DNA of 64,000 bases from Lentinula raphanica (taxonomy: Eukaryota > Basidiomycota > Agaricomycetes > Agaricales > Omphalotaceae): contig JANVFP010000002.1 of assembly GCA_027919835.1 (NCBI GenBank), positions 1,116,001 to 1,180,000 on the forward strand. Direction: 5' to 3'. A model generated the notes under the pieces. The model did not search any database. It saw only the letters and a list, made by a program, of their open reading frames with translations, and was not told the DNA's origin. This document shows positions 13,402 through 35,300 of the stretch, one piece after another (the stretch's first letter is position 1; the number at the start of each line of letters is the position of its first letter). Made by a program: the position numbers and the translations under genes.

Positions 13402-14368
13402 ATGCATTTCAACAGCTCTGTTTTCTATGCTCTCATGTGCCTGAGCGCCATCGTCCATACAGCCTGTGGCAGCCCGGTGCCAGCGAGTTCAGATCGAGCT
13501 GACAGTCCTACGCCTCCTGGTGGCAGTCTTGAGCATGCGAGTTCAGAACGAGCTGGCAGCCCTTCGCCTCCTTCGGTGCCTTTAAGTAGGAACAGGCCAG
13601 TCCAAGGCAGTTCTGCCCCTCACAATCCTAGCGCGTCGGAGGTTGAGCCAGCCGGACCAGCACTTAGCATTGGACTTCCAACACTTGGACGTCCTCCTCG
13701 ACAGGGATCTCAACCTTTCCAACACCAACATCCTCCTTTGTGGACACGGCTTTCAACCCGTGAATTGTCTTCTTTGATCGTTAAGTACATTGAAGCAGGT
13801 CTGAAGTTCTATGGACCAAGAGAACTTGGATCCTTCATTCTCGAACTCCGTACTCATCCTCATCGCGGCATTCATTTCTACTATCCCGGACCTGACAACA
13901 ACCCAGAAACTTATGTTCCTATTCCCTCATATATTCAATACTCAAGTGTTGCACCAATTCAATATGTTGGATACGATTTCGCTTTCAGCCCTCGTCTACT
14001 ATGTGACACTACTACTATCGAGAACAATTTCTGGGGCTCCGGGACTCTCTCGTTTGGTTTCTCAAGAGCACACGATCTCGACTTGATCGCACATGCTACG
14101 ATGCTTCTTAGAGTTTTCGAAAAAGTCGACAAAAGTCGTAAGGCGAGTCCTGACAATACTCTCCTGAGGAACCATACGATGTTCATTGCATCGGTGCGTG
14201 AGCGATTGATTATCGATTTACTTGATGCTAACACTGAGCAATCATCTTGCTGTCATGCTCCAGTACGGCCGATTTCAATTCGTAAATACCATACCCGGTG
14301 ATCGCTCGGGGAGGGGACTGGAGGTGAAGGATACTTATGGAGGTCCGTATTGGACAAAAATAAAATAA
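13402..14368 (+). pseudogene. Small secreted protein, paralogue B, split by the 20.9-kb transposon
   Basis: Exon 1 is 13402-14193 (264 residues) and exon 2 starts at 14264. It has the same plan as paralogue A: signal peptide MHFNSSVFYALMCLSAI, a longer Pro/Ser linker, then the conserved domain (TRLSTRELSSLIVKYIEAGL onwards). The reading frame of exon 2 runs through PGDRSGRGLEVKDT and then enters the left inverted repeat of the transposon at 14336. It picks up about ten foreign residues and stops at 14366-14368. The missing native end lies at 35241-35300 on the far side of the element. A truncated product with a transposon-derived tail could still be made, because the break is near the C-terminus. 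Confidence 0.75.
14330..14335. repeat. Left target-site duplication GATACT
   Basis: The six bases immediately before the left inverted repeat are GATACT. The same six follow the right inverted repeat at 35241-35246. Removing the element and one copy restores a sequence matching the undisturbed paralogue C (GAGGTGAAGGATACTGG). Confidence 0.85.
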
Positions 14369-14371
14369 AAT
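14336..14371 (+). repeat. Left terminal inverted repeat
   Basis: Starts TATGGAGGTC and contains TATTGGACA followed by AAATAAAATAAAAT. It matches the reverse complement of 35205-35240 at 33 of 36 positions. Confidence 0.9.
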
Positions 14372-14400
14372 ATTTTAGTAGTGGCAAGCAAAAATTTATA

Positions 14401-14510
14401 CCGTGATCACGATGAATCTGAAACAAATTTGTCGTGATCACGATCTTCATCAGAAAAATTGTCGTGATCACAATACCTTCCAGAAATTTTGTCGTGATCA
14501 CGATTGACAA
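14401..14510. repeat. Left subterminal array of CGTGATCACG
   Basis: Four copies of the palindrome CGTGATCACG (the third imperfect) begin at about 14403, 14433, 14463 and 14493, exactly 30 bp apart, separated by AT-rich spacers. Diverged versions continue to about 14630. Arrays like this near both ends of a DNA transposon usually bind the transposase; that role is inferred here. Confidence 0.8.
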
Positions 14511-14789
14511 AATAATTTTTTGGTCATGTGACAAAATTTTTTTAAATCTCGATCATGATTGGCTTTTTTTTTTTTGATCTCCAAATTATTTTTCAGAAAC
14601 ACGGTCACGATCCGAATCACGATCACGGTGCTGGCACAGGACCAACAAGTTTTTCAAATCATTATCTTAAATTTCAGGTTTCAATGTTTTGCAAATATGA
14701 TAAGTCTGTCATGATCATGATGACCAAACGAAGGAACAAACATGTTTTAAAAAATTTTACGTTGGCTCTTCTTCCTATCTCTGTCGAAA

Positions 14790-17700
14790 ATGGCTATCTG
14801 TACTCAATGTCGGGCAGACGATGACGAGTGGCCGTGTGCCGACTTTCTACAAGAGCCTGGTGGTCCTGTGAGTCTCCTGTCCTACACAGACTGGTGTTTC
14901 GAATGCCAATGATGTCCTAGCCTGGGAAGTGTGTCTGCGGGCACAGCGAAAGTCAACACGTACCTCCTTTGCCTCCAAAGGGAGCGTGTCCCGCCCGAGC
15001 CTGCAGGGGCTTTGTAGGCCCAGTGCGTGCATTTTAATCATGGACGTGCCACTTTTAATGTACTTTCACAGGTCAATGAGAATTTGACACCTCGCACCCG
15101 CTGTGCAGCGATCGTTGGCCATGGGAGTGAGCGTTGTGGTGCTCCCTACACCAGTCATCTCAATTTGTTACCGTCAGTCTCTCTTCTTTGTTCATTTCTC
15201 AATCAACTGAGCTATCGTTAGGCCTGCCACATCTACTAGAGGTCTCCCGGCACCTGCTAACGTCCCTGCACAGCGTGGTAGTGGAGCAGTGACCCCTTGG
15301 CATCCTCCAGCCATATCAAACTCTACGCGGTCGGCTTTGAGCACTAATGAACGCCGAGTAGCATCGTATCAGCAAGCTGGGCCGCCAGGGATTAGCAAGC
15401 TCGGTAAACTGGGGCGGAATGCGAATCGGGGAGTGTCCCGCAACACCTTCCCACAGTCAGCTCCACTCCCTGCCACGGTGCCCTCATCCAAGGGCAAAGG
15501 AAAGGGAAAAGCTGTTGTGGAAATGACTTTTGACATCGTGATCCTACCGGAGTGTTGTGATGTGAGTAGCTACCCTCCTTATATGTCAACTCTATTCTCA
15601 TACCACTGGAGCAGGGAGGCAATGATGAGACAGCTAACGAAACTGGTAGTAATGCCTACCCTGCAGCAGATGCCATCATCGTCAAGCAGACCGACGTCAG
15701 GGACCTTGTGGACCGCTTGGCTAGATATCAATTCGTCTTCTCAGTCACTCTGCCTGACGATAGAACCGCATCCGAGGAGGTGCACGCCTTCCTCCATGAT
15801 GAGATTTGTAGTCACCTCTCATTTCTTGGCATTGTACTCACCTACCCCAGGGCGACAATCGGTAAATATGGGTGGTATGTTGTTGATACCATCACCAAAC
15901 CTCGCAAGGAGGCCCATACCAGAAAGCCCTTTGAATTCCACAACAAACATGCGCTTGCCCTCAATACCTCGAGCTTCTTCGAGCGTACTAACCTCAAGAA
16001 TTATCTCAACACGACCACGAAGGTCCACCCTTACCTTGAGAGCGGCTATCTATTCATCTGTGTGTAAAAGGCACTGTATTTTCTGAGAACGGTTCTGTTG
16101 ATTCTTTGATTCCTTACAGGTCCTTCAGGGTCTCCCATGTACTTGCAGGGCCATCCCTGCGTTGGGTTGAAATTGCTCCACGAGTGGACCGTTGATTACA
16201 GACTTTACCATGAAGACCGGGAGGATCCCCAGGTTCAGTGCTTGCCACTCTGTCCATCTGAACGGACGCACATCCTTCATCACCCCTTTCCTAAAAAACC
16301 TCGTTCTGTCGATGACCTTCCTGATCCTAATGTTCCATTGCTACGAGGGCCCCTTGAACAGCTAGGTGTTGACGATGAGGATGACCGGGACATTCAAGCA
16401 GGCCTCTCGGAGCGAATCACTTCCCCTCAGTCCCTAGATGCTGATGATGATGAGGCTGCCGACATTGCACGAGCGATCGCTCTCTCCATACAGGACCAGG
16501 TTGACCCTCTGTCTGTCTGTTATCGATCAGAATCTACTCACGCCGTATTTCTAGGCTAGGCAAGTGTCGACTGGATACGATGAATTCTCTAGTGCTGGGG
16601 CTGGACCTTCAAGAGCGGTGGGATCGATTTCTGCTCCTGCATCCTTACCCCCTGTTGCTGCTCGTCGTACACGCCCTCTCAGCCCCGATGATGAGGTTGT
16701 ATTTCTACCCAGCGACACGGTAGGCTTCTTCTGTTGCGTCGGACCATATTTCATATATTGACCCACGCATTGAAGAATCACGCTCGTCGACGCCGCCTAA
16801 ATGATGATGAACCTGAGCATTCCGTCCAATGGTTCATCACTCAGCTTGGACAACATATGGGACCACGTGGGGGGGGTTCCATTCTAGTCACAGCTCAATC
16901 CACCTCCGAAGCTGCTACAGCATTCATCGAAGCATACCTTGGGTTATATGGCCATAGTTCAACCACAGTTCCTCGAGCTGTCATCTTATCAGGGGATAGG
17001 CGTACTTCAAAGATCGACATCCGAGTGTACGTGTATATCATCATTCTCTTCTGACTGCGTTGACCTCACCCCTATGATGCAGGGCCATGGCTGTTGGGGA
17101 TGGAGTTGTGAGAGCCGTGCTCAACGAGGCACTCAGCCTTGTTATGGAAGATCCTGTCTGGATTGAGATGACTGAAGGCTTGAAAACTCTTGGGTTAGGT
17201 GCACCAGTAACCCAGGACCGATTGGCTTCGATCAAGATGTCAGGGTCCATACTGGCCCTTGGGCTCATTTATCTCGGATGCCTTCCGTCTAACCTCAGCC
17301 CTGCCTTCATGGAGGCCATCATCCATGGACCCGAGTCAGTGGAGGATGTTGGCTTCCTCAGCGTGTTCAATGAGTCATGGGCTGAACACATCCGTCAGTG
17401 GCCATTTGACCCAACTAAGGAGAAACCTCCTGCGTATTCTGACGAGCTTGTGATCCATTATACCAACAATACGGTAAGCACGCCACGCCTCGTTAGATTA
17501 ATGTTCGAACCAGTGTTCATGCTTTTGCAGATTGCTCGGTTCCATGAGGAGTATGCGCCGGTCGCTTCCCGGAAGGGGCTCCGGGCCCAAGTGCTCTATA
17601 AAGCTATATTGGACCTTCCCGTCGGTCCAACGACCTTTGAGAAACATCCTTACGTCCGAGCATTCAAAATCGGGTTCAATCTGAAGTTGCCCGATGGTAC

Positions 17701-18367
17701 CGACCTGATCAATGCTTTCCCCCTTGATTCGAAAACCTTCCTTCCCTATCTCATGAAATCTGTCCCCACTAGTGGGGATTGCATTGAAAGGGAAGGGTGC
17801 ATCGAGTGGAAAGATACCTTCAATGATCCTGATCAACAACGCTACGTCAACAAGTGGAAGAGCTGGTTCTACGAGTATCTTCGCGGTGTTGGACATGTTC
17901 AGCACTCCGCGTTTCAAAACCTTCTCAGTGACCGTGAGGTGCAGAAACATGCCACGGATGCTGGTTTACGTGCTCGTTCATTTTTGCTGCATGCTACTGG
18001 CTCTGTATCGATGCCCCGCAATCACAAAATCAAGGTACGATTGTTTATATTGATGGCCTACAGACCTGTCGCTCATGCTTACACCTTTCCCTGAATCAGA
18101 TGAGTTTCACCTTCAAAGACAGTGAGGATGGTTCTGTATGTGGCTTCTCTTGTCGCATGGAAGAGTTTCTTTGACTCAGTTTTTTTGTGCATCCAGGCTT
18201 TGGCGCCGTTTGAAGTGCATGCTTGTTTCGCCGATGTAACGGTGAACATATGTAAGCACGTCAAAGCCCTTCTGGATGAGAAGGAGGTCGATTCCCAGGC
18301 CCTTTTTAACATATTCATTCATGGGCCTTTGGCAGGTGCAGGCCGCAATGATTTTTCAATGATTTAG
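14790..18367 (+). CDS. HECT-like E3 ubiquitin ligase with UIM, transposon cargo
   Basis: Eleven exons: 14790-14867, 15072-15172, 15222-15561, 15615-16061, 16149-16499, 16555-16719, 16776-17026, 17083-17473, 17531-18034, 18100-18135, 18197-18367, giving 944 residues in one frame. The N-terminus has paired cysteines (CTQC, CADF, RCAAI, RCGAPY) that may bind zinc. Around 423-439 is a ubiquitin-interacting-motif-like helix (DEAADIARAIALSIQDQ). From about 500 the protein resembles a diverged HECT domain: an N-lobe segment IKMSGSILALGLIYLG...LSPAFMEAII, and a C-lobe with MSFTFKDSE followed by PFEVHACFADVTVNI, where Cys898 sits where HECT enzymes have the catalytic HTCF cysteine. A mobile-element-borne ligase could act on transposase, histones or silencing factors. 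Family by motif; target unknown. Confidence 0.75.
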
Positions 18368-18500
18368 TTCCCTATCTTCAGCCCGTAGAATCGTAGCAAC
18401 CAAAAATCTATGCCTTTATTTATTGATATCTCATTCCGTTGTCTTCACAGAGTGTGAATATAGGTGTCAAAGTAGGGTACAGAATTCTTGTTGAGCACCA

Positions 18501-18620
18501 GCGCTAACCTACGGGGCCCAGTGGTTTAGCGCTCACTTACCATATGAAGACGATTACACAATTCTCTCACGGTCATGTGACTACGAGCGCTAAACTACTG
18601 AGCTCAGCAGTTTAGCGCTC
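18501..18620. repeat. Two intergenic palindromes with the TAAACT core
   Basis: 18501-18532 pairs GCGCTAACC with GGTTTAGCGC. 18585-18620 is an almost perfect 36-bp palindrome, GAGCGCTAAACTACTGAG and its complement with one mismatch. They follow the HECT-like gene and precede the next gene. The core recurs at 22796, 28669 and 34888 within the same transposon. Confidence 0.75.
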
Positions 18621-18650
18621 GTTTGCCATGTGACAAATGGTTTCACGATC

Positions 18651-19076
18651 ATGTGCCTGGTTCAAAAAGCTTTTGTTGAACGATCTGCACCTCACTTTCA
18701 GCCACCACAACGCAAGAAGAAAGCAATCCACCCATTCCCTTTTGTCACCGACTCAAAGGGAAAGCAATTAACAGAGCTCGAAGTATTGGTCAGTTAGACC
18801 CTTTCTCTGTTTTTACTCTACTCCTTCTTTACAGGCAGAACCAGGGCTGCCTCGGCTGCTGCAAACCCTTCCACAGGTTACAGAGGCTTGGAGAACGGCC
18901 CTGGCTGTCTCGGTTCTTTTGTTGGGTTAAACCTCTTTCCTCTTTGTTCAACAGCTTTACACTACTACGAGCATCGTTCAGGTAAAAAGGTGTGTCACCT
19001 TGCTGGTATTTCTCACAGAGACGTTTGGAACGCTTCTAGGTTAAGGAAAGACGGTATGCACGCTACAGTTGTATAG
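18651..19076 (+). CDS. Small unrecognised transposon gene
   Basis: Exon 18651-18788 begins MCLVQKAFVERSAPHFQP, is Lys/Arg-rich in the middle and ends LTELEVL. A gtcagt donor and an acceptor at about 18834 join it in frame to AEPGLPRLLQTLPQVTEAW and a hydrophobic helix. The 3' end is uncertain: a possible further intron (gttaaacc...aacag) would add LHYYEHRS and end by 19076. That tail would overlap the converging gene on the other strand by a few bases. No domain recognised. A 26-bp stretch near 18854 (TGCAAACCC then TCCACAGGTTACAG) recurs in the first intron of the TET-like gene at about 28812. Confidence 0.4.
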
Positions 19077-20668
19077 GAATTGTTTGTACGGTATGGTATA
19101 ACCTTTCCACTTCAGTATAAAATTGTTGGAGCTTCCAATGCACTGATGGCTGCTGCTGACCTGTCTCCGATTCCAAGAGCTTATCACACGCGAGTGTGTA
19201 GGGGTACCAGGTCTGGCTCAAATCAAGCAACTGATCGTTTGCCACCTGGTTGGCGATGACATGCGAAAGTCGGCCCAATGCAAAATGGGCTTGTGCTAGC
19301 CTGCTTTTCTTGTTGGCAAACGTGTTCTCCTGAACGGTGAGGAAATTGTAGACGTCCGCTAAACATATGTCGACTCCATCAACTGAACAAACAACGTTTT
19401 GCAGTCGTCGGGTATCCAGAGAAAAACCGTAGAGGCTGCCAATGACATGGAGTGAACGATATTGTCGGTAGGCTTTGTAGGCTGTGAAACCAGGTACCCG
19501 TAGCTGCCTGAGAGCCAACACTTCCTGGTAAATATCGGGAAACTGGCTTTGCAGAATTTGCTCGGGACCAGATTCTGACTGTTGAAGGTCAGACATAGCA
19601 AGCATCGTAAAAGTAAGACGGGTTTCACCTGCCCTTGACCAAGCCCCTCGTCCTGGCAGGTTGTATTGTGCTCGGGACCAGATTCTGACTGTTGAAGGTC
19701 AGACATAGCAAGCATCGTAAAAGCAAGACGGGTGTCACCTGCCCTTGACCAAGCCCCTCGTCCTGGCAGGTTGTATTTTGCTCCTGGACTGCGCAAGTGG
19801 TCAAGCTTGCGACGAGGGTCTGCACACTGACTTCGAGCCACGGTGGGAGTTGAACCTCAGCTGATCACGGTGTAGTAAAAGTAAGTAAATGTACACGGAG
19901 GTTTCCCCATACACTTACAAGTGCTGGACCTTGCCACAGATGGTAAATCTGTATCATCCGATACTGATGGTGAGCGAGGTTGCACTGAAGAAGGGCAGAC
20001 AGTATTAATAATATAAACAATGGAAGCCTGTGGTGAGTCATACACAGGACTGAGTCAATTTCGCTATTTTGATCCTCTACCTGCACCTCAGGAACTTGCC
20101 GATCGCCTGCAGTGGAAGGTGATTCTCCCGCGAGACCCATTTCAGGTTGGGGAACAGACCCTAGGGGCGGAGGGCTCATGGGATTGCCATGGTGGGTGAT
20201 CGGGAATCCCAGAGCAGTGCCTGCTTCGCGGTGTAATTGGTCCTCCTGGACGAATGGAGCTTGACCCTGTACTTCATTCGAAAGCAAGTGGTCTGGACGA
20301 GAGCCTGTGAAATATTTTACAGTAATGAGACCTTGAATTTCTACCACACTCTAAGCGAAAAATCTAAGAACCGGGGGCATCATTTGAAGCAGCATTTCCT
20401 GTCAACGTTTCATCTTGGGACCTGTGGGGTAAACCAGGTGTTTCCGCTGGAGGGAACATGATATATTGCTCCATGAGCACTGGAACAGGTGTGAGGAACA
20501 GATAAAAACATAACGGCAAACAACGATACCTTCAGCCGTTACTTCGCCAGGAGCACTCGACCGCTCACCCTCCGGCATCTGGGGATGGGGTAATCCTTGA
20601 CTTCTGTTCCTTCTTGATCGCGGCACAATTGGAACTGCATTGAGCTGGCGGTGGGAGCGCAGATTCAT
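19063..20668 (-). CDS. Unrecognised transposon protein with a tandemly duplicated exon
   Basis: Seven exons keep one frame: 20668-20530, 20479-20372, 20304-20081, 20027-19919, 19860-19739, 19688-19629 and 19578-19063, about 425 residues. The N-terminus is basic (MNLRSHRQLNAVPIVPRSRR), the middle is Pro/Ser/Gln-rich and probably disordered, and the C-terminal 170 residues are helical (FPDIYQEVLALRQLRVPG onwards). Exon 6 encodes a 20-residue unit, and its flanking DNA is a 110-bp tandem copy. No known domain recognised. It lies downstream of the transposase gene on the same strand and may be an accessory transposition or DNA-binding factor; that is inference. Confidence 0.6.
19561..19780. repeat. 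110-bp tandem duplication containing an exon and its splice sites
   Basis: 19561-19670 and 19671-19780 are near-identical (a few substitutions, for example AAAGTAAG against AAAGCAAG). Each unit spans an acceptor, a coding block and a donor, so the duplication added one spliced 60-nt exon to the minus-strand gene without breaking the frame. Confidence 0.85.
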
Positions 20669-20866
20669 GGCTGTTACGGATTAAAAATTCAGATTCAGGG
20701 GGCTTTTCCTCAAAAAGCTGATGTAATCATCTAGGCCCAGCCCTATGACATCATCTTTGTGAATGGCCGATGGAGGGCTGCATTACAGTGTATTTGGAAT
20801 GGCTTTTTACAGTTCGTCGCGTCGGTGAACGAGAAATTTACAGATCGAAAGCAATCGACTATGTAT

Positions 20867-22772
20867 TCAATTTGACACAGAAACAATACTATATAACAAT
20901 TCGAGTGCTCTAGCCCAAAGCCTTTTGTAACCCTCGACGTCTCTGCAACCGTATTCTGGTGCAACCATCAAAGTTTCTACAAACGAATCTAGGTCTTCCT
21001 GGTTCTCAAACGGACACGCGAAATCTGGCACCTCAACCAGGGAGAGCTGGGGAGGTTGTCGAGAGTTTGCAGGGACAAGAGGTTCAGCATCTTCTCCGTT
21101 GGTTTCCTGGTGGTGGCGAAGGATTTCAGGATTGCTTAGATCCTCCCAGTCAATCCCATAGTCCTCCAGGGGTCCAACCTCTTCCTCCTCAGGTTCCGGG
21201 CCAGGTTCTGAAATACCTGGAGGTCCTCGAAGACCACGCTGTAGTACGCCAAAGAAGAACATATCATGCGGTGATCTGGCCCTCTCTGAGCCATGAAATT
21301 GCATGGTGTGCCTGTTCCAGGACTCAGCCCAAATAAGAGCATCTTGATTGATGGGAAGAAGAAAGAGATGATGGAGTAGCCAGATATGGCAGTCGTCGTC
21401 GGGACACAATCCGCCATTCAACTCCAACTCATAGAACAAATTGTACCACTTCATACCAAAACCTTGAGTGACATCGCGCCAAAGCCGCTCAATGCGTACG
21501 TTGTGGACACTCCTGTGACCAATATACACGCATGAGTAACCGATATCCTTTCAATGAACCATGAACTGAAGTACTTGCCTGCCCCAGATGTATGAACCGC
21601 GTTCAGCACCAAAGTTTTCTTCCATATAGCGGGCGACCCCAAGATTTTCAACCCCATGGTCACCTCGGACTCGACTGGGGGTGCTATGGGATGCTATAGC
21701 TTGCAAGAACAGAGCAAGCACTGTATCTGCCCGGTTGTTCCCATTGGCCTGTATGGCAGTGACCATACGGGAAAAACCATCGATGAAGGCATGTATCACC
21801 ACTCTCCAACGTATGAGTGCTGCTTGCAGGTAAGCATAGGTATCCATTGAGGGGCAGGGGGAGGAAACTTACTGTGTTGACCGTCATGATGCCACAAAGA
21901 GTTAGGGCCGCCGACATGATACCTCCTTCTCTGGATTTGGCGGGAGGTGAGGTGGGCTGGTGCTCCTGTTACTCGCTCATATGAATTCCGAACCCTTTCT
22001 TGCGGCACCTGATGACCTAGAAACCTGAGATGGCCTGTGATCATCCGACGACCAAAGGCAGGAAAGACTTCAAGAATGCTACGGATAACAGCATCCAGGT
22101 CGTCATCCGATAGAGTCGACACCGGTGCTGTGGACGACGACTGATAGATACGTAGGTTTTCGTTCGTCTCGGGGTCTTCATATGTCACGTACACCGGAGG
22201 ACAGCTATCAACGATCCCGTATTCCAGGGCACGACGACGGACAGTACGAGCAGAGCAATCAAAGATAGGTGCCAGATGGGTAGGGCCACGCAATTGAAGG
22301 CTCGCCTCCAGGATATCCTGGTTGAGTACTTTTTTAGGACGCCCTCGTCGCCCCGTCCTCTGAATTTGGGTAAGTTCGATAGGTGTATGGTCCGTTATAT
22401 CCTCAGATCGGTGGGATGTTTGCTCCAGGGCTGATAGCATAGATTGAACACTGGTCACCATTGTGTCGTAATCGTCGGGGTCAAATAGATGCTGATGCTG
22501 TATGGCAAAAGTCCGTGAAGCTTGGTCCATGTTTCAGATGCGCAATAATTACTCACCTGCATTACTGATTCAAGGAAATCTCGTGTAGATGCCTCCTGAA
22601 GTTGTAACTGGGCCACATCGCCGAGTTGGAGTTGGAGTACTTGGGTGACCCGATGGCCCAGTTCTGTGTATGCAGCGAGTATCGTCCGGACTTGCAGTTC
22701 CGCCTCTGGACCTGGTTGAGCGGATATCAATACACCTAGCAGTGCCAGGATCACAGGAGAAAAAAGCAACAT
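20867..22772 (-). CDS. Integrase-like (rve-fold) DDE transposase
   Basis: Exons 22772-22557, 22497-21873, 21819-21579 and 21512-20867 give 575 residues. Residues about 115-170 contain GRRGRPKKVL followed by a helix-turn-helix-like segment (LAPIFDCSARTVRRRALE). The catalytic core holds WHHDGQH (Asp277), HAFIDGFSR, RVRGDHGVEN (Asp334) and HNVRIERLW (Glu369), with 34 residues between the last Asp and Glu, as in retroviral integrases and IS3. The third intron must use a GC donor (gcaagt, at 21578) to restore WGR-SVHNVRIE. An acidic C-terminal tail follows. The first residues are hydrophobic, so the true start could be slightly different. It is the only recognisable recombinase in the element and presumably cuts its TATGG ends. 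All three catalytic acids are present. Confidence 0.85.
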
Positions 22773-22795
22773 TGTGCTTGGCGGGCGCTAACGTT

Positions 22796-22995
22796 GGGCG
22801 TTAAACTACTGGGCTCAGCGGATTACAAAGCAAATTACGTGATTTGGGCGTTAAACTACTGACCTCAGCGGATTACAAAGGAATTCATGTGATTTGGGCG
22901 TTAAACTGCTGGCCTCAACGGATTTATAAGCAGAATGTGTCATTTGGGCGTTAAACTGCGGGGTTCAGAGGATTGCTAAGCAGAATCTGTCAACT
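22796..22995. repeat. Four 50-bp tandem repeats upstream of the transposase gene
   Basis: GGGCGTTAAACT recurs at 22796, 22846, 22896 and 22946, exactly 50 bp apart, each followed by (A/G)C(T/G)G..CTCA.CGGATT or a variant. The units decay from first to last. They lie just upstream of the transposase start on the minus strand and beyond the 3' end of the JmjC gene, so they could be transposase promoter elements. The core is the same as in the palindromes at 18585 and 28669. Confidence 0.85.
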
Positions 22996-23130
22996 TGACT
23001 TTAAACCCACTCAGGAGAATTGCAGTTAATCGTTCAGAAACTGGAACTGGAAAATTATATACTAGAACATGAATAAAATACAGATACACAAGCTACCAAA
23101 CATATCATTGGCTCCGAGATGTCCTTAGCG

Positions 23131-26100: not shown

Positions 26101-28520
26101 CCTTCATCTCTTCCTCAATATCCTTCATCTCGTTCATCTCTGCTTCTGTGCTTTGGGGGGGAGGAGCGGGCAGTTGGGGGCGTTCACCCTGGATCTCGTT
26201 CTGCTGCGGGTCTGGTGGGGGGTGTTGATCTTCTTGCTCGGAGGTGATCTTCCCATCGTTGGGCGGCGGCGGCGGTAGTACTTGGTGCGCACCCTCGTTG
26301 CCCGTCAGCTGCTTCTCCGGAGGGGGAGGAGCGGGCAGTTGGGGGCGTTCACCCTGGATGTCGTTCTGTTGCTGGTCAGGTGGGGGGTGTTGATCTTGTG
26401 GCTCGGAGGTGATCTTCCCATCGTCGTCCGGTGGCGGCGGTGGCGGCGGCAGTTCTTGGTGGGCCCCCTCGCTGGCCGCCAGCTGCTTCTCTGGAGCCGT
26501 TTGATTTTCCTTCTCGGCAGCATTCATCTCCACATCGGGGTCTTTGCCTTGCGGCGGCGGCGGGGGCAGTTCGTGCTTGTCTCCCTCGATCCCCTCCATA
26601 TGCTGGTCGTTGCCCGTCATCCGCTTCTCCGGAGGGGATTGATCTTCGTTGTTGGCAGCCTTCATCTCCACATCGGGGTCTTGGCCTTGCGGCGGCGGCG
26701 GCGGCGGCAGTTCGTGCTTGTCTACATTGAGGTCAACCGTTGGTTTTCGACCTAGCAGGGGAGAACCATTATCCTCTGGTTCGGAAATCTCCATGTCGGA
26801 ACCCTGCTCCTTGTCTCTGTCTGTAACGGTGGGCTTACCTATCTGTGGAGGGGGGGGCCGTGCTCGAGAAGGCGACTCCTCGTCCTCAACTTCTATCACA
26901 AAGGGACGTAAAGGACGCCGGGACGAAGAACCCTCTTCATTATTGGGCGGGACGGAAGGACCAGGTGTTTGGACAGGATGGCTCGGGGAAGACGGAGATG
27001 GGGTTGAAGATGGAGGATGCGGTGGTGGAAGTCGAGTGGGTGTTTGCGGGTCTAGGGGACGTAGGGGAAGCGAGGAGGGACCGGGCCTGGGGGGATGAGG
27101 GCGTTGAAACAGCGGACGTGTAGGAGCCGGAGTTGTTCCCCGAATCACATTCTCGATGTACTGTGTGTCCCCCACAGGTGATGGGGTCGCTGCTCGAATC
27201 ATTTCCTCAATGAAACCACCTCCGTCAATCTCAGCACGTTTCTCGTCATAATCTGCAGATCACACAGAGCGGTGGGGTAAGCAAAGGTCATGGTGAGGCA
27301 GGAAGCGTAGCAAGAATAACATACCATGGCAGAAAAAGTGGTTGTCCTCTTTGGATACCGTGTCGATAAGGTCCTGAGGAAACTTGTTGACCAACATGTC
27401 CATGAACTCATTTGCAGTGATCTGATTTCTCGAAACCCGTCGCAGATGGGTCCACATAAACTCCTCCATCTCCTTGAGTACAGTTGGCCGGTCTTCATGG
27501 GGTCCGAGAGCATAAGCAAGCTAAACACCTGTCAGTTCCGTGTGGCATCCACAAAAGTATGGTGTATACAAACATGTAACAGGGTCTCACGATGAGAACT
27601 GCTTTGCGTGAGTGCGAGGGGTCGGAGCAGCAACAGCGGTGAGACAGCAAGACTGAGGAAGAGGGGATTTTGGAGGTTGTTAGGTTTGTACGTTGAGCCT
27701 TGTAAGATCGATGGTAAAGTCCAAGACCTTGCAACGAGGTTGAGGTGGCCATGTGGGAGGAGAGGTAATTGATGACTTACTGTGAGCCTAAGCGCTGCAA
27801 GTGATTTGAAAATTGTTGAGATGTCTCAGGATAGTCAATTCGGGCACCGTGGGCAGTGTCCTGCTCTAACCATGCCAAATGCAGTGCGGCAAAATAAATA
27901 TTCTGAATGATTTTCGTATACTCCTCCTTTCCTGCGTAGTGATCGATTTGGTCCAGCATTTGTTGCATGGGATGTAGGTCGGTGTTTGGTGCTGGAGAAG
28001 GTTTCTTCTGGTTCCATTTGTTAACGGCCTTACGGGCCTGATTGACAACAGCAACCCAACCTCCGTCTTTCAGCAACGGCCCCAGCTAAGGTCAATTGGT
28101 CACTTGTTCTGAGAACGGTGTAGGGTTCACTTTAATGGCACTCACCGGTCCTGTCAAGGTGGCTTTCATAACGGGAAGGGGTCCTCTTTCCGGGCCAAAA
28201 GGTATCAAAGGCAGCTCGGGATGGGTGAGCACATGAAGAGCCCGTAGGCCAAGGCAGTACGAGCCAACTGGGGCCCAGTCGGCGTAAGTGAGAGAGCGTT
28301 GGGGATTCTGACCGCGTGTGATTACTCCAAATGCCAGATTGGACGATATCTCATCGCGTTGGTTTCTTAGTAAACGTGCTAAAGGCTGAAAACGCGAGTT
28401 GAGGATACATAACAACTCAGTCAGAGGGAATAGAGTATTTCATCAACTTACATGGTCCAGGCTGGCAATCTCACTGTTGTGGAGCATAAGATTCAGACCT
28501 TCATTGGTAGTCTCACTCAT
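23131..28520 (-). CDS. Very long JmjC-domain protein, transposon cargo
   Basis: Thirteen exons join in one frame: 28520-28452, 28385-28146, 28085-27781, 27652-27574, 27520-27325, 27252-25483, 25409-25219, 25158-25120, 25064-24990, 24932-24620, 24559-24121, 24064-23781, 23732-23131, giving 1533 residues. Residues 1-300 form an unrecognised folded part. About 300-880 is a Pro/Glu/Asp/Ser-rich disordered region with repeats, ending in a basic KGKGKGKGK-type stretch. The JmjC core lies at about 1090-1300: FHVDCEG gives the His1176/Asp1178 iron ligands, LEPGDML precedes a proline-rich loop, and ICHGGHYYS supplies the distal His (1258 or 1261). JmjC enzymes oxidise methyl-lysine using Fe(II) and 2-oxoglutarate, so histone demethylation is the likely activity; the substrate is unknown. 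It is divergent from the TET-like gene, with a palindrome between them. Confidence 0.8.
25840..26110. repeat. 90-bp in-frame coding repeats
   Basis: CTCGGCTTGTCAGCCTCTGG recurs at 25869, 25959 and 26049, a 90-bp period. On the minus strand each unit encodes 30 residues with PSRSPSPSSD and EEEEEMNVDPEADK inside the JmjC protein. Near-identity between units points to recent slippage or unequal exchange. A second family (ELPPPPPQGKDPDVEM-like) repeats between about 26270 and 26730. Confidence 0.85.
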
Positions 28521-28668
28521 TTCTTATGGATTGAGTTGGAATTGTGAGTTGAACGGTGGTGGGGGTTGAAAACGAACTTGAAATTTTCTGAGTCTTAAAA
28601 AGAAGCTGACAAAGCAGCCACGAGGCCGCGGCATCTCATGCCGCTTACATCATTATGACTCGTGCGCT

Positions 28669-28704
28669 GGGCGCTAAACTACTGAGACCAGTAGTTTAAC
28701 GCCC
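28669..28704. repeat. Palindrome between the divergent JmjC and TET-like genes
   Basis: GGGCGCTAAACTACTG and CAGTAGTTTAACGCCC face each other around GAGAC. The 36-bp palindrome is centred between two divergent start codons (28520 minus, 28745 plus). This is where a shared regulator would bind. Confidence 0.8.
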
Positions 28705-28744
28705 ACCACCCTGTCATTTTTTATCACTACCAGTACGTCACAGC

Positions 28745-30488
28745 ATGGGGTCTGAATCCCAAGGTGAGTGTGTATGGTTATATGCATGGTATAGTTGTAG
28801 CTGTGTACATCGCTGCAAACCCCTCCACAGGTTACAGCTTTGCCTCGCAGCCGCACCGGTTTCCTACCACTGATCCTCTCTCCTCCGACAGGCAATTATC
28901 CTAAGGGTCAATTGCGATCGGGAACTTTACGTCAGTTTCAGCCCCTTCCTTACCGTTGCCGCAGATTCAGCCTGCGCCAAACTCTCCAGGCCGAGAACCG
29001 TGCACGGATGAAAAGAGAGGAGTTGGGAGATTTTTTAGATGAAGAGGTCGAACTCGAAGAAGAGGTAGAGGTCGTGGCACAGGAGAAAGAGTTGAGCACG
29101 GAGGCCTCGGGGATGTTCAGCTCCCTTGGAAAGCCCGCCCCGGTTGGAACTTCCTTCGGCCACAACAAAACCTCCAATCCACGCGTAAAAAACGCACACC
29201 AAAAAGCCAGACGCCGTGCAGAAGCTCAAGCCCGCGATGCTCAGGGAGGGATCAAACCGGTCGGGGTCCTGCGTGCACAGGAAGCCGCTGTGCTTCCGGT
29301 CACGGATTTCCAGATGGCATCGCTCCCTGTCTCTACCACTGCTTGGACAGGCAAGAGGGCTTCCCCTAGTCTCGGTTCAGCCTGGCAGAGCCTAGAAACG
29401 CTTCGTGACAAGGAGGGGTTTGAAGTGTTTGACTGGGATGGGAGGTAAGCGGCGGTTTTGCAACATTGTAATCACAGTTGATACATCCCCTCGCTAGGGC
29501 CTGTCATACTCTTGTGGACAACGAGGACATTGTTTGTGGAGTGCTTGCCGGAGGCCCGAGGGGGTGCGAGTGGGATGAGGTAGCAGAGGATGCAGCCGCC
29601 GCTGTGGGAAGTGCATATGATAGCATGACTTTTACCAAGAAACAGCTGGAGTCGCGGCGGGGCAAGTTCGCCTCTTGTACCGCTGGTTATTCCTACGGGG
29701 GCGGCAGGGAAATCGTCGGAAATGTCCGAATCAATGGGAAGAAAAACAAGAGGGCTATTGAGACCCTCTTGAGTCAGAAGAGCATTCGACGAATTGTCGG
29801 CTTTACTCATGGTTCGTGACGTCAGGTATAATTGACCAACCAAGAAAATGCTTACCGCTCTGCAGATATGTTCAAGACGTTTGCCCATAAACCTTACATG
29901 CAATACAAGGAAACAGCTGAGGCGCTCCAAGCTCGCCACCCGTACCTCCGTCCGACCTCACACAAGACTCCTTTCGCGGCTACGACTTTCAACATGGGAC
30001 CCCATTCATTCTCCCCTCCTCACGTCGATGAGGGCAATAACGCTTGTGGGTGGTGCGTGGTCACTGCCCTAGGACCGTTCGACCCAGACAAAGGTGGACA
30101 TCTTGTGCTCTGGAACATGAAGTTGATCATTCGATTCCCTCCTGGTGCTTCCATTCTCTTTCCTTCTGCGCTTGTTACACATTCAAACATCCCCATCTTG
30201 CCACATGAAAAGAGGTACTCGATGGTTCAGTACTCCGCTGGAGGTTTATTTCGTTGGCGATACAACGGTTTTCAATCCGACAAGGCTTTTTTGGCTTCAG
30301 CTACCTCTTCTCAGTTGAAAAAGCGGGAGCGGGATCGTCAGCTGCGCTGGAAGTCGGGCCTCGATAATTTTTCCCGCTGGGAGGATATTCAGAATGGAAA
30401 TTGGAAGGGTGACCAGGAAGATGGAGGGCCTTCTAATGCTGATGTTGATGCACGCCCCACCAAACGGTTTAAATATCTTTCTCAGTAG
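28745..30488 (+). CDS. TET/JBP-family 2-oxoglutarate dioxygenase, transposon cargo
   Basis: Exons 28745-28763, 28838-29444, 29498-29811 and 29866-30488 give about 520 residues. The start MGSESQ joins ALPRSRTG across the first intron; the N-terminal junction is less certain than the rest. An acidic coiled segment (EEVELEEEVEVV) comes before the catalytic part. The catalytic core shows FSPPHVDEGN (His366, Asp368), GGHLVLW, ASILFPSALVTHSNIPI (His419) and KRYSMVQYSAGG (Arg430), the Fe(II) and 2-oxoglutarate signature of the fungal TET/JBP family. These enzymes oxidise 5-methylcytosine in DNA; fungal copies are known to be expanded and linked to KDZ transposons (Iyer and colleagues, 2014). Here the linked transposase is of a different fold. 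All key residues are present, so activity is plausible. Confidence 0.85.
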
Positions 30489-30780
30489 CATGACATGACT
30501 TTTGGGTTGAAAGAGCTTGCTTGAACGGAAACGATGATTGCGTGCAGACAAATGACAAATGGATCACTTGGTAGGAGTGAATTATTCCTATGGTCTTCAT
30601 AGCGTATGATGGGAATTCGAAATGGGTCGAAATTCGAATCAGTCGTCACTGCGAAAGCTCTGTGTGCGCAAGAGAAAAAAAGAAACACAAACCAGACAAG
30701 TGAGTCCCTCATGCAGAACCGCCACCCCACCAACTCCAACTCAACAACACTATCACCGCTACTAGCCCTTCCCCAGAATT
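30489..30780. other. Spacer between the TET-like gene and captured host fragments
   Basis: About 290 bp with no gene of its own. It holds the TET-like 3' flank and runs into the left edge of the F-box fragment; that edge cannot be fixed by eye. Confidence 0.4.
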
Positions 30781-31695
30781 GAGCCTTGAGAAGACAATAT
30801 CTATCGGCTATCATCCACGCCTGTATTCCAAACGAGCTGCTTTTCATCTCAACGACCATTGCTCCGCTCTTGAAGAGAGACTTCCTTCGTGCCCTCCCAC
30901 CAGAACTCGCGTTACATGTACTTAGATTTGTCGACACTCCAAAGACTCTTGCCCGTGCTGCACAGGTCAGTCAATGGTGGCAAACGCTGGTGAACGACGA
31001 GTCGTTGTGGAAACGCATGCGTGCACAGTATGAATTTATTCCGCCTCCTCGCGATCGTTGTGGCGGTAGTCATAGTCGGAGGAAGGGTAAAGACCGGCTG
31101 CTGTATACGAAAGATCATGATGAACCGGGAAGGGCAGAATATATCTCGACAATCCCTCGAAATCCGTCGAGTTCGCGTCATACGTCGGGTCTTACTATCG
31201 ACTTTTCTGATAAGAAACATTTCAAGTATTCCTATTCACTCAGTACGTTTGTTCTTTCATCTTTGCTCCCACTAAACACTGATTTTTGACCCATCCACTT
31301 TCTAGTGCAGAACTGGCATAACGGCGGACACCTTCTCCAGGCTCACAAAATGCCACTCAGTTCATCAAATCCAGAAGCCGGCGTCGTCACTTCGCTCGCA
31401 TTAGACGATGACTGGGTCGTCGTTGGTTTCGCAAACTGTCGGATGCACGTTTTCAGTGCGCACAGTGGTATCCTCGCACGGACCCTTTTAGGGCATGGTC
31501 TCGGCGTATGGGCAGTGTGTCTGGTACAAAGGGTGGATATATGGGTGGGCCGAATCTTCAGGATCGAAACAGACAACAGACAGGCGGGAGTCGGAGTGGA
31601 ATGAAGAATCAGAAAAGGAAGAGGAAGAAACGTGGCCTTCGTTCGCCTACTCACTTTCACATGGCTTTTACAGCTTATTGGCATCCGCAATGACG
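30781..31695 (+). pseudogene. Captured fragment of an F-box/WD40 gene (Cdc4-like)
   Basis: 30786-31243 encodes RRQYLSAIIHACIPNELLFI, then a textbook F-box (RDFLRALPPELALHVLRFVD ... AAQVSQWWQTLVNDESLWKR). An intron near 31243-31306 leads to the first WD40 blades (VVTSLALDDDWVVVGFANCR, HVFSAHSGILARTLLGHGLG, VWAVCLV). The frame breaks at about 31525: the continuation TKGGYMGGPN lies in another frame. The fragment ends near 31695. The N-terminal region and most of the propeller are absent. F-box/WD40 proteins are substrate receptors of SCF ubiquitin ligases. As it stands this is a dead fragment inside the transposon. Confidence 0.8.
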
Positions 31696-31709
31696 ACGGT
31701 AGTAAGCAC

Positions 31710-33549
31710 AAATATCATTCCTTCAGCCTGGCCTTATCAATTCTCAATATATTCTTGCCATCAAGCCCGTGGAAGCAAAATCCTCGCCTGCATTACCTCC
31801 GCTTGTAACCTTGTTCACGTTACCATTCACGGCCTTAGAAACAACTTCAGTTGAATATGCATCAGCCATTCAGGAGTTCTTCGTTCACATCTTGACTATC
31901 CATCTGCTTCCCAATCGTCTGCCTCTACCTACCCTCACTCAACTGTCTTCACATCTCCCCCTGACGAAGATGAATCTTTCATACGCCAAATCCACGGGTG
32001 AATGGTCGTCGTCTAGCTTGGCTCAGTTCCTCTCTGGTTCGGCAACAGTTATCACAATAGATGTCAAGATACATCTGATCTCTAATCTCCTGACCTTCAC
32101 ACCTCCTCGATACGGCAAGCTTCCTGGGCCTGCTTTCGCTGCTTATTTGCGGTTGTTATAGGCGATGTCCTATTTCATATCCCTTCGGGTGCTCTCGAGG
32201 GACCATCAGCAGTCTCTTCCAAGAATCGCTCAAATGCCATGAATGATTATGGATCGGATTCCGACGACGACCACTCGAACATTCGTGTCACTATAGTTTC
32301 AAGCTTTAATACTCCATCGCATCCTCCATTACCTGTTCTTGATCCTCGCACTCTCAAGAGACTCCTTGTACTTCCATCTCCAGCTCACATCCTCTCAATA
32401 CTTGAAGCTTCTAAATCTCTCAGCTCCTCACGCTACCCCCTGATCACCTTCATTCATTCCCTGAGTGGAGTGTGGCCTTCGAAGCAAGATGAACTTCGGA
32501 CTCATCTCTCGTCTTGGAATGGAGGAGGACTTGTTAGGGAAATATGGAGAGGCTGGGTCAGAGGTGGAGGTTTGGGAAGCAACATAGTCTCACCAGAACC
32601 GAAAGCGGCCAATGCTACGGATGTCGATTCTCGTTCCAGTCATTTGGAACATCTACGTCCTGTCGTCACCGCAGCGAACAAACTCCGAGGCGTTGCACCC
32701 AACTCAGATGAGGAACCTTGGGCGCCGTTACTCCTTCTTGCAGACCTATATTCTCATGGCTTGGTGACGATGGACGATGACGAATTCTTTTCTTCTTCTA
32801 CCTTGACCGGAATCGGGTCAAGCACCGCCCACCGGAATCCTCTTACCCTGGATGAAATTTCCACATTTACACGACAGCTTCCGAACATCGCCTGGGTGCT
32901 TTGGATGCATGGAGGCGATCTAGGGAACGAGTCGTCATCCAGTTTTGCATCATCTGTACCCCAACCTCTGGTTCGATTTTCATGGATCGAAATCGGCGAA
33001 AAAGTTACCAGGTGTCTTTTGGCTATAAATGCGCGCGATGCTCGTGAGCCATTCATGCCACCTGGTGGCTGGCTGGTTATGAGCGACGAATCCACGATGT
33101 CAGAAAGCAATGGCAACGCACGTGCAGAAGATATGCGTCTTACACCGGAGATGGCAGGGTTCGTCGAGGCAGCCATCTTCGAAGCTCAAGAGCTCATGAA
33201 CGCCTCTAATTCGTCATCTGAAGCTGTCTCCATTGATGCTATCGGCTCCCCGCGTCGTGGATTCCGAACATACTCAAAACGAAAGTTGAACTACCTCACT
33301 CCTCGATTAGGGGTGCTGAACAACATTCCGTTTGCCATCCCCTTCCATGTTTGGGTTGTTATTTTCAGAAACTTTGTTCACATGGACATGGTTGCTTATA
33401 GGCAAAGAAGTCGTTGTCGTCGGAGAAAGGAACGTGTGATGCTATCGGCGTTTGAGGTTCGTCAAATGAGCCTGGTGTGTCGTGAAGGAGTCTGCGAGGA
33501 AGGGTATAGGAGTCATATGAGCCACTCAAAGAATTACACCCCTATGTAG
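31710..33549 (+). pseudogene. Captured N-terminal part of a Hul5/UBE3-like HECT ligase gene, without the HECT domain
   Basis: 31760-32160 encodes LPPLVTLFTLPFTALE ... LLPNRLPLPTLTQLSSHLPL ... FTPPRYGKLPGPAFAAYLRL, then a stop. After it 32240-33549 is open: DYGSDSDDDHSNIRVTIVSS, LDPRTLKRLLVLPSPAHILS, VWPSKQDELRTHLSSWNGGG and LGVLNNIPFAIPFHVWVVIF. This is the region that precedes the catalytic domain in Hul5/UBE3B/C-type ligases. The sequence leaves the gene just after VMLSAFEVRQ, before any HECT domain, and stops at 33547-33549. Truncation at both ends and the internal stop make it a relic. It is distinct from the HECT-like cargo gene at 14790. Confidence 0.75.
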
Positions 33550-33930
33550 CTCGTGCGCAAATAAAATCGAGCCAGCATTACTTTGAGCGAGCGAGAATAT
33601 TATCAACGATGGGAATGGGACTCACCACCGGTATTACCAGTACAGCCAACGTGGAATCGCACAAACCACGTCCAGAGTACGACCGCAGTGAAACATGTCG
33701 AGCTGGCTGAGTGAAACAAGGCTCAGAAAAACGTCGTACTAACAAAATGAGCACACGTAGCTTATTCGAGATCGATATGTATGTAGACTTGACGAGGTTG
33801 AAAGGCCTGCCATATGCTCGAATCCTTCAAAAATTCACTTAATATACAAAGCAAGCATCTAATATTACAATCATCCTGGATGAGGTTTGAGCACTAGTAT
33901 ATTTCAGAAAATTAAAAGTAAAAACTTACC
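33550..33930. other. Non-coding stretch inside the transposon
   Basis: About 380 bp between the captured ligase fragment and the converging GIY-YIG-like remnant. I see no gene, repeat or palindrome. Confidence 0.4.
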
Positions 33931-34556
33931 TCACTCATTTGCCGCCCTTACAAGGATGGGGTACAGTAATTCGTTCCACACAACGGAACTGTCTCTGGAG
34001 GTGTCTGCCACGCGGAAAGTAAAGACCTCTTGATGTTTTCTTTGGCCTTGTAAGATCGTTTGAATGGACAAGCTCAAACAGATGATATGACAACACATAC
34101 ATTTCACGCAATATCGTCGTGGTCTGTCTGTGCAGATACGCTCGATCAAGAGGTGGGCGAGCGACTCTAATAAGGAATGAAGACGGTTCTGTCTGCATAG
34201 AAAAATCATAATATACCAGCTCGTCGACGGTATGCAACGGGAATTGGATCCTTCCAAATTCGGGTAAGGCAAGGGCATTGCCGGTCCCATTGCGCCCTCC
34301 GACGTGGAAAATCAATGCTCATACCAATCTTCCAGTCAATCCCGTTATCCAAATATGCGTAGAGTACGCCGCAACCATCGGCGTCGGATATTTGCCGCAA
34401 TTTTCGTCGCTGGTATAGTATTTCTAATTCGGCGGCTGACCGTTTGTGAAGAATGATGGCGCCGTCGTCTATCGACGGCTCAGTAACCGCGGGGCGTCCC
34501 TGGATTGAAACAAGGGGGGAGGGGGAGCCTAATCGAGTTTCAGTCATATTTCCCAT
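33931..34556 (-). pseudogene. GIY-YIG nuclease-like (T5orf172-type) gene, probably frameshifted
   Basis: From 34556 the frame reads through GCGVLYAYLDNGIDWKIGMS, a GIY-YIG core (the LYAY and WKIG strands), then FPRRRAQWDRQCPC with the conserved Arg, and DPIPVAYRRRA. The family's continuation is in another frame: NRLHSLLESLAHLLIERICT, DRPRRYCVKC, an intron (about 34109-34051), then QRKHQEVFTFRVAD and a tail ending LLYPILVRAANE, stop near 33932. The two parts lie only some 25-30 bp apart, and no valid intron joins them in frame, so a small indel near 34218 is likely. Intact relatives could nick or cut DNA. Gene identity is fairly clear; function is probably lost. Confidence 0.6.
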
Positions 34557-34982
34557 AAATGGGGCAGCAAAAAGTCTGGGCCAAGCTAGAAGTGTGGGAG
34601 TGTGGCAAGGGGAGAGGGGGGGGGCTTAGTTCCTGAAGTTGATGAGGGAGAGGAGGGGGGAAAGGGAGGAAAGAATGAGAAGTGGTCAGAATCAATGCTG
34701 TTATATAGAAGAATTTACAGAGCTTATCTGGATAGATGGGATCGACTAGATAGATGGGATCGATTGGAAGCTGGCTGAGTCTGAAGTCAACATGCATGCT
34801 AGCATATATCGTACATAATGCCTACAGGTACTCTACCCCCTCATACAGGTATATCACGTGACCCTGGTGGTTATGTAAACTCACTGAGCTAGGTACTTTA
34901 ACGCCCAGTCACGATTGCCGGCCGGCCGATGTTTTTTTGTGCCGGGAATTTTTTTTTTTTTTGGGGACAAAAAATTTTTTTC
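34557..34982. other. Right arm of the transposon, homopolymer-rich, with half-palindrome
   Basis: No gene seen. A G/A-rich run occupies about 34580-34680. At about 34881-34905, ACTGAGCT and ACTTTAACGCCC form a degenerate copy of the palindrome found at 28669. Poly-T runs precede the right subterminal array. Confidence 0.5.
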
Positions 34983-35180
34983 CGATCACGCCGCAAATCA
35001 CGATCACGATCGTGACCACTGTTTATCAAACGCGTCGTGATATTGATGCGAATCGAAAAAGTTTCGGCCGGTCACCGTGACCGGCGTTTATTTTTTTTTT
35101 TGCGTAGCGTGATCACGCGATAATTTTCCTGTGAAGCCGTGATCACGACGAAAATGTTTCGACAAGCCGTGATCACGGTA
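34983..35180. repeat. Right subterminal array of CGTGATCACG
   Basis: Copies at about 35108, 35138 and 35168 are exactly 30 bp apart, with diverged ones from 34984 onwards (GATCACG, CACGATCACGATCGTG). Motif and spacing mirror the left array. Confidence 0.8.
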
Positions 35181-35204
35181 AAAATTTTGATTTCAACGGC
35201 AACC

Positions 35205-35240
35205 ATTTTATTTTATTTATGTCCAATATAGACCTCCATA
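35205..35240 (-). repeat. Right terminal inverted repeat
   Basis: Reverse complement of the left end with three mismatches in 36; it ends GACCTCCATA at 35240 and is followed at once by the GATACT duplication (35241-35246). Confidence 0.9.
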
Positions 35241-35300
35241 GATACTGGTAACGGTTTATTCAACAGGATAAGAGGATGGTTCTTCCCCCAACTAGCGTAG
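35241..35300 (+). pseudogene. Orphaned 3' end of paralogue B
   Basis: This 60-nt piece reads DTGNGLFNRIRGWFFPQLA and a stop, in the same frame as the end of paralogue C (DTGSLFSKIRGWFWP). It is the native C-terminus that the transposon separated from 13402-14335. The B-unit 3' flank (gagggtccaggaatgttgtt) follows. Confidence 0.85.

Follow-up and report, generated by a model that had tools for sequence, protein, structure and literature searches.

A complete DNA transposon of 20,905 bp occupies positions 14336 to 35240 of the 64-kb stretch of DNA that was analyzed here (the window; C2:1116001-1180000), which comes from a Lentinula mushroom, probably L. raphanica. From its sequence, we consider this element likely to be a cut-and-paste transposon of the IS3EU kind that carries its own predicted chromatin-modifying genes, which would serve the element's expression and mobility. 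Two full-length copies were recovered from the genome, and in both of them—the contents of one variable slot excepted—the genes follow the same order: HECT-like, gene B, transposase, JmjC-like, TET/JBP-like, and T5orf172 (Table 1).

Table 1. Features of the element and of its target, in window coordinates
Feature	Position	Strand	Remarks
Last exon of host gene, split by element	14285..35303	+	Left part to 14335, right part from 35247; outer limits approximate
Left target-site duplication	14330..14335		GATACT
Left terminal inverted repeat	14336..14476	+	Begins TATGGAGGTC; end-to-end alignment
Left subterminal array	14402..14502		CGTGATCACG at 14402, 14433, 14493; one-mismatch copy at 14463
HECT-like gene	15211..18367	+	Exons modelled from 16695 on; N-terminal part after P0123
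Gene B, function unassigned	19063..19698	-	Genome matches only in window element and C34
Integrase-type DDE transposase	20867..22527	-	Exons 22527-21873, 21819-21579, 21512-20867
JmjC-like gene	23131..27259	-	Catalytic exons 24944-24121, 24064-23131
TET/JBP-like dioxygenase gene	28801..30488	+	Divergent from JmjC-like gene
Variable slot	30496..33665		F-box-like piece, then host gene fragment; absent from C34
T5orf172 (GIY-YIG-type) gene	33931..34556	-	PF10544, E 7.4e-5, 23.6 bits, cut-off 20
Right terminal inverted repeat	35104..35240	-	End-to-end alignment
Right subterminal array	35108..35177		CGTGATCACG at 35108, 35138, 35168
Right target-site duplication	35241..35246		GATACT

The termini are inverted repeats of ~140 bp (TATGG..CCATA) with a local alignment score of 67, compared to 17 for the best of 200 base shuffles, and over the first 36 bp the left and right ends agree at 33 positions. 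A search of the assembly (49 Mb, 75 contigs) with the left end recovered 17 similar places, 12 of which make up six end pairs and five of which are unpaired. Each of the six pairs is bordered by a perfect 6-bp duplication, different in every case (GATACT, GGTGCT, CTTGAG, CGTGAT, GGCACT, and GTCATT), bearing out the inverted ends and duplication described in an initial annotation of this DNA. Genome-wide, the left end led to one more full-length copy, C34:278318-302134 (23,817 bp), which has the same ends as the window element. Four short copies (1.0 to 1.5 kb) match the long copies at both ends and lack the middle, as internal deletion derivatives do. The initial annotation had made its proposal dependent on another copy carrying the TET/JBP-like, JmjC-like, and HECT-like genes between the same ends; because the 23.8-kb copy on C34 keeps these genes between the same ends and in the same order, the proposal stands on that count.

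The target of the insertion is the final exon of a host gene that belongs to a tandem family. When the flanks are joined, one frame is open across the target site as far as a TAG stop near 35303. The insertion point, close to residue 175 of a 192-aa query, is crossed without a break by two tandem paralogues that lie in the window (matches 147 to 189 and 151 to 190). The listed upstream open reading frame (ORF) ends early, at 14301, 34 bp short of the element, and is in a different frame from that of the joined flanks; the possibility that the host gene is not interrupted was rejected on the strength of the joined-flank frame and the uninterrupted paralogues. The interrupted host gene reported earlier is thus upheld.

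The transposase is encoded by three exons that give an open frame of 514 aa with Pfam matches to rva_4 (E 2.8e-62) and rve (E 2.6e-8), in agreement with the DDE transposase first annotated. IS3EU transposons are characterized by TA..TA ends and usually by 6-bp duplications (PMC10045372), and the fungal IS3EU elements that carry TET genes have been described with TAYGG..CCRTA ends and 6-bp duplications (PMC12730594). The TATGG..CCATA termini and the 6-bp length of all six duplications correspond to these descriptions. Taken with a transposase that is intact and of the integrase type, they are consistent with membership in IS3EU, a placement made from these characters. A TET gene between transposase and alpha-kinase, which is a mark of the published TET-carrying IS3EU families and not of the superfamily, was not found here, and none of the 20 ORFs scanned (of 39 listed for the window) matched an alpha-kinase. 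It is highly improbable that the element is instead a Polinton/Maverick, a Ginger, or a member of some other group with an integrase. A length of ~20 kb, an integrase-type transposase, and 6-bp duplications are traits common to Polintons (PMC10045372), but the ends agree with those of published IS3EU elements and recur on short deletion derivatives. A Polinton or viral identity was rejected because DNA polymerase, packaging ATPase, and capsid domains were absent from the same 20 ORFs. Membership in the Kyakuja/Zisupton (KDZ) transposons was likewise rejected: the window transposase had no KDZ match, and the only KDZ match in the window, among the matches listed, lies outside the element (41006-41782).

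A search with the TET-like protein returned 117 proteins at E ≤0.001, and those with organism names are from Agaricomycetes. The nearest relative, P0001 from Lentinula raphanica, is 99% identical across 95% of the query and has a single Pfam match (PF20515, E 0.0044), which is below the cut-off. The window protein also falls below the Pfam cut-offs, and a PDB search gave no match for its sequence or its profile; both results count against our main reading. Tet_JBP was matched by seven of the 34 relatives that were aligned (best E 9e-8), and the HxD...H iron ligands and the downstream Arg (H153, D155, H206, and R217 of P0001) are invariant or at least 90% conserved among the 34, which supports the TET/JBP-like gene as initially annotated. 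Assignment to the AG type (the CcTET-like group, in which H+5 is Gly or Ser and H+11 is Asp) was rejected, as P0001 has Asn and Cys at these positions (counted without gaps), and assignment to the PE type (HxE for HxD) was rejected in view of HVD. Since the protein has neither AG- nor PE-type residues, its product is not transferable from CcTET. When the 30 best of the 98 TET matches were placed in a tree, the base of which was weakly resolved, the TET genes of the window and C34 grouped with neither the KDZ-linked nor the other transposase-linked sequences. Within the same tree, transposase-linked C19:905838 was sister to KDZ-linked C51:155338 (support, 100/100).

Matches to the JmjC-like protein point weakly but consistently to a JmjC identity. 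Pfam JmjC_2 was matched at E 0.011, below the cut-off. The profile of the JmjC-like protein retrieved 12 PDB sequences at E ≤1, nine of them JmjC proteins (PHF8, PHF2, and KDM7) and three cytochrome c553, with a sub-threshold best E of 0.035; all five PDB matches of the single sequence were KDM2A/JHDM1A (best E, 0.09). P0120 and P0121 are listed as JmjC proteins in a database. When aligned to KDM2A, the protein has the HxD...H ligands in FHVD and TPHFV and a Lys in front of YW, which we take to be the one that binds 2-oxoglutarate. Of the JmjC gene with catalytic residues claimed at the outset, the ligands and the Lys therefore hold in alignment with KDM2A, whereas the domain matches remain sub-threshold. 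A proline-rich part upstream (25379-27259) is probably the N-terminus of the gene, and the same joined arrangement occurs in P0118. A further JmjC copy, on C61, includes this upstream part; it corresponds to 23037-28721 of the window with 92 to 93% identity in long pieces and has no TET gene. The transposase nearest to it (C61:41979) is 38% identical, and no IS3EU ends were found around it in the parts of C61 examined.

The HECT-like protein has one relative, P0123 from L. raphanica (99% identity over 28%). In both full copies, FEVHACF is present near its C-terminus, and we liken this to the HTCF-like motif that contains the catalytic Cys of HECT ligases; a match to a ubiquitin-interaction motif was weak and below the cut-off. 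Pfam gave no match at E ≤1 or ≤10, and the PDB searches returned no HECT protein; the Pfam HECT model did detect 14 pieces elsewhere in the same genome. The HECT assignment is thus a candidate one made from motifs alone: the catalytic-type motif expected from the initial annotation recurs in both copies, and no Pfam or PDB match accompanies it. TET/JBP-like, JmjC-like, and HECT-like genes lie together in a single mobile element, as initially annotated, with catalytic-type residues in place, and another copy of it is present on C34. The variable slot of the window element contains a fragment whose protein is 92% identical to its sole other match (C19:1014233-1015534), and that of C34 contains a phosphatidylserine decarboxylase fragment (E 7.2e-25). 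As these differing slot contents show, the element captures host genes, which counts against the main reading and in favor of the passenger reading considered below.

Compared in steps of 500 bp, the window and C34 copies are 63 to 86% identical up to 22329, 90% identical at 22330-22829, and 96 to 100% identical at 22830-30329; past 30329 there is no real similarity, and identity is then 78 to 83% from 33830. The JmjC-like and TET-like genes form a head-to-head block, and dS was 0.002 to 0.08 within this block and 0.29 to 0.76 outside it. These contrasts in identity and dS indicate a recent exchange or conversion between diverged copies, and the block was probably swapped as a module. Between the two copies, dN/dS was 0.03 for TET (218-aa ORF; 11 synonymous changes and 1 nonsynonymous), 0.08 to 0.18 for the transposase, 0.26 for gene B, and 0.32 for the HECT-like gene. 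The ratios were 0.61 and 0.97 for JmjC (3 and 18 changes) and 2.15 for the proline-rich part (8 changes). Relative to the C61 copy, the JmjC catalytic exon had a dN/dS of 0.22, with the iron ligands kept, and the second exon had a dN/dS of 0.70, indicating weak constraint. We count the JmjC ratios between full copies and that of the second exon against the main reading, along with two features of C34: its N-terminal ORF of TET contains an insertion of 0.6 kb, and the first exon of its transposase, as aligned, has a stop.

Linkage of the element's genes across the genome was compared with 1,000 rotations, in which the length of every contig except seven is a minimum value. The places used were 93 of 98 matches for TET and 14 of 19 for JmjC (second pieces of the same gene omitted), 92 of 92 for T5orf172, 54 pooled places for the transposase (merged to 53), and, among the matches listed, 114 for KDZ (merged to 113) of 158; because apparently duplicated contigs (C61/C8 and C65/C8) were retained, some of these places are not independent. 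When the two full copies were excluded, a window-type transposase lay within 15 kb of 12 of 91 TET genes (rotation mean, 2.7; maximum, 10) and of 18 of 90 T5orf172 genes (mean, 2.7; maximum, 12). Nine of these 12 TET genes are on the strand opposite to the transposase, and seven of the nine are divergent from it. The control pair of transposase and KDZ was unlinked (1/51, full copies excluded; rotation mean, 3.4). JmjC linkage outside the full copies was weak and counts against the main reading, with the transposase within 15 kb of 2 of 12 genes (reached in 50/1,000 rotations) and TET within the same distance of 3 of the 12 (34/1,000). TET genes were also found within 25 kb of KDZ at 34 of 91 places, full copies excluded (rotation mean, 9.4), consistent with the literature on mushrooms (PMC12730594). 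When the full copies were included, the counts within 25 kb, with rotation means and the number of 1,000 rotations that reached them, were 14/93 for TET-transposase (4.5; 1), 6/14 for JmjC-transposase (0.7; 2), 5/14 for JmjC-TET (1.4; 10), 20/92 for T5orf172-transposase (4.5; 0), 19/92 for T5orf172-TET (9.0; 2), 35/93 for TET-KDZ (9.9; 0), 4/14 for JmjC-KDZ (1.6; 82), 4/53 for transposase-KDZ (5.6; 803), and 9/92 for T5orf172-KDZ (9.7; 632).

The sequence CGTGATCACG is a CpG-bearing palindrome with six exact copies in the window, every one within 170 bp of the element ends and spaced 30 to 31 bp apart save for one degenerate step. Exact copies are expected at 0.08 per window, and six were reached in none of 100 shuffles. 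Two of the exact copies remain in C34, and the inner GTGATCAC is present in the short elements in one to four copies. Phased repeats in a subterminal position commonly serve as transposase sites. In CACTA elements, methylation of the subterminal repeats is thought to hamper transposase binding (PMC4219821 and PMC2613891). The observed/expected CpG ratio was 1.32 in the left 465 bp versus 0.81 for the whole element; CpG depletion of the whole element is no different from that of the flanks (0.90 and 0.82), which we count against the main reading.

In the mechanism that we favor, the transposase would bind the phased CGTGATCACG palindromes within the ends and insert the element with a 6-bp stagger. 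The TET/JBP-like enzyme would most likely oxidize methylcytosine on the element, the CpGs of these palindromes included, and may in this way keep the end sites open, and the JmjC-like enzyme would most likely take off a histone methyl mark. With both predicted erasers, the element would remain expressed and mobile. The HECT-like protein may be a family-specific accessory and, more speculatively, a ubiquitin ligase directed against silencing factors. The predicted demethylating enzymes may thus help the element escape from host silencing, and anti-silencing by transposon TETs has already been proposed (PMC12730594). A more far-reaching version is tentative and, in our estimate, has less than an even chance: the head-to-head JmjC and TET block would be a mobile anti-silencing module that passes between transposons and acts against silencing at the DNA and histone levels simultaneously; the CpG palindromes at the ends would need to stay unmethylated for transposase binding, and the HECT-like protein would remove silencing factors.

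It is also conceivable, but rather unlikely, that the JmjC and TET genes are passengers that were acquired in the same way as the F-box fragment of the slot, have been kept similar by recent gene conversion, and give the element no help. Captured host fragments that differ between copies would suit such an origin, as would the high dN/dS of JmjC (0.61 to 0.97) and of its proline-rich part (2.15) between the full copies, although on few changes, the weak linkage of JmjC elsewhere, and the C61 copy without TET. Passengers are harder to reconcile with the dN/dS of TET (0.03), with the constraint on the JmjC catalytic exon relative to C61 (0.22) and its retained iron ligands, and with the 12 of 91 other places at which TET is near a window-type transposase. 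Less probable still is that the enzymes serve the element without being erasers, the TET-like protein making a stable oxidized base as a mark and the JmjC-like protein hydroxylating a nonhistone protein. Oxidized cytosine as a signal, and hypermodification, are discussed as open alternatives in PMC12730594, and the TET-like protein would allow for them, having no AG- or PE-type residues (P0001 retains HxD and has Asn at H+5 and Cys at H+11). Against this reading, though not decisively, the closest solved relatives of the JmjC part are histone demethylases.

An IS3EU-type element with two predicted erasers remains our preferred reading, and its precedents are recent. TET-carrying fungal transposons, IS3EU among them, were published in 2025 (PMC12730594). 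The main text of that paper does not contain the words "JmjC," "ubiquitin," or "Lentinula," lists no TET-carrying IS3EU for Agaricomycetes, and gives an alpha-kinase gene for all TET-carrying IS3EU families. In the open-licence literature, supplementary files aside, no report was found of TET with JmjC and HECT-like genes in one transposon, and among the matches listed no paper had a bearing on JmjC or HECT with transposons. Within the literature searched, the initial suggestion that this combination had not been described holds for the three genes together; TET-carrying IS3EU elements as such are already published. As far as the searches could show, what is new in the open-licence literature is a TET-carrying IS3EU in a mushroom, the pairing with JmjC in an exchanged block, and the HECT-like companion. 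Compact and apparently intact, with two predicted erasers and defined CpG end sites, the element bears on the question of whether an eraser carried by a transposon protects it from silencing. Its deleted derivatives could be used as reporters, and the target exon has paralogues that are uninterrupted. If the favored mechanism is true, the element would counter DNA and histone silencing jointly, and such genes would be shown to move as a module.

Several known systems resemble the Lentinula element in part. The TET-carrying IS3EU elements of rust fungi and Tuber indicum share with it the TAYGG..CCRTA ends, terminal inverted repeats of >30 bp, 6-bp duplications, a DDE transposase, and a TET/JBP-type gene, but they have an alpha-kinase gene and a PU- or PE-type TET (PMC12730594), whereas the Lentinula element has JmjC-like, HECT-like, and T5orf172 genes and a mushroom host. 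TET-carrying KDZ transposons of Agaricomycetes are alike in their mushroom hosts and in TET expansion but differ in their transposase and in having 7- or 8-bp duplications (PMC12730594). En/Spm-type CACTA elements, in which methylated subterminal repeats are believed to keep the transposase from binding, offer a working parallel only; their transposase is unrelated and their duplications are 3 bp, and TET or JmjC is not mentioned in the accounts of them in PMC4219821 and PMC2613891. Plant VANDAL elements, with an anti-silencing protein, and oomycete HarbingerS/MuDR elements, with SET genes, likewise carry a gene that acts on host epigenetic marks (PMC12730594). As described there, each of these elements has one such activity, whereas the Lentinula element carries predicted TET-like and JmjC-like enzymes together.

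Genes for T5orf172, a transposase, and TET occur together at loci on contigs C1, C18, and C40, where the spacing from transposase to TET is nearly constant (14592 to 14634 bp; n = 3). These loci probably represent a second TET-carrying family in the same superfamily as the element. On C4, C51, and C44, a JmjC-like gene accompanies a TET gene, with neither the element's transposase family nor KDZ (Kyakuja/Zisupton, another superfamily) recovered within 30 kb; these pairs may mark another carrier.

Coordinates of features in the window and on other contigs (C plus number) of the same assembly
Feature	Location	Remark
T5orf172, transposase, and TET together	C1:736-778 kb; C18:210-245 kb; C40:72-108 kb	
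JmjC-like gene near TET gene	C4:12030; C51:182734; C44:335221	~6.6 kb apart, same strand
Host-gene tandem family members	window ~10649-11294, 13402-14335, 36791-37454	includes gene interrupted by element
More distant members of that family	C22:648952-657498	
Locus holding likely host source of slot fragment, then HECT-domain pieces	C19:1014175-1017252	
HECT-domain pieces	C19:1016063-1017252	directly after slot-fragment source, in either the same gene or a separate one
Near-identical stretches	C61:24655-42848; C8:1115748-1133631	
Extra ~0.6 kb in C34 copy	C34:293107-293693	at 8-bp overlap, window 29335-29342
KDZ transposase remnant	window 41006-41782 (C2:1157006-1157782)	strand -
Similar KDZ remnant	C24:355993	

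Compared with the window element, the second full-length copy (C34) carries additional CCCTAACCC-rich, hairpin-like sequence within its N-terminal TET ORF. The match between C61, which holds a JmjC gene copy lacking TET, and C8 reflects either a haplotype duplicate or a segmental duplication. The KDZ remnant in the window contains in-frame stops and lies 5.8 kb past the element's end, and its counterpart on C24 scores about equally.
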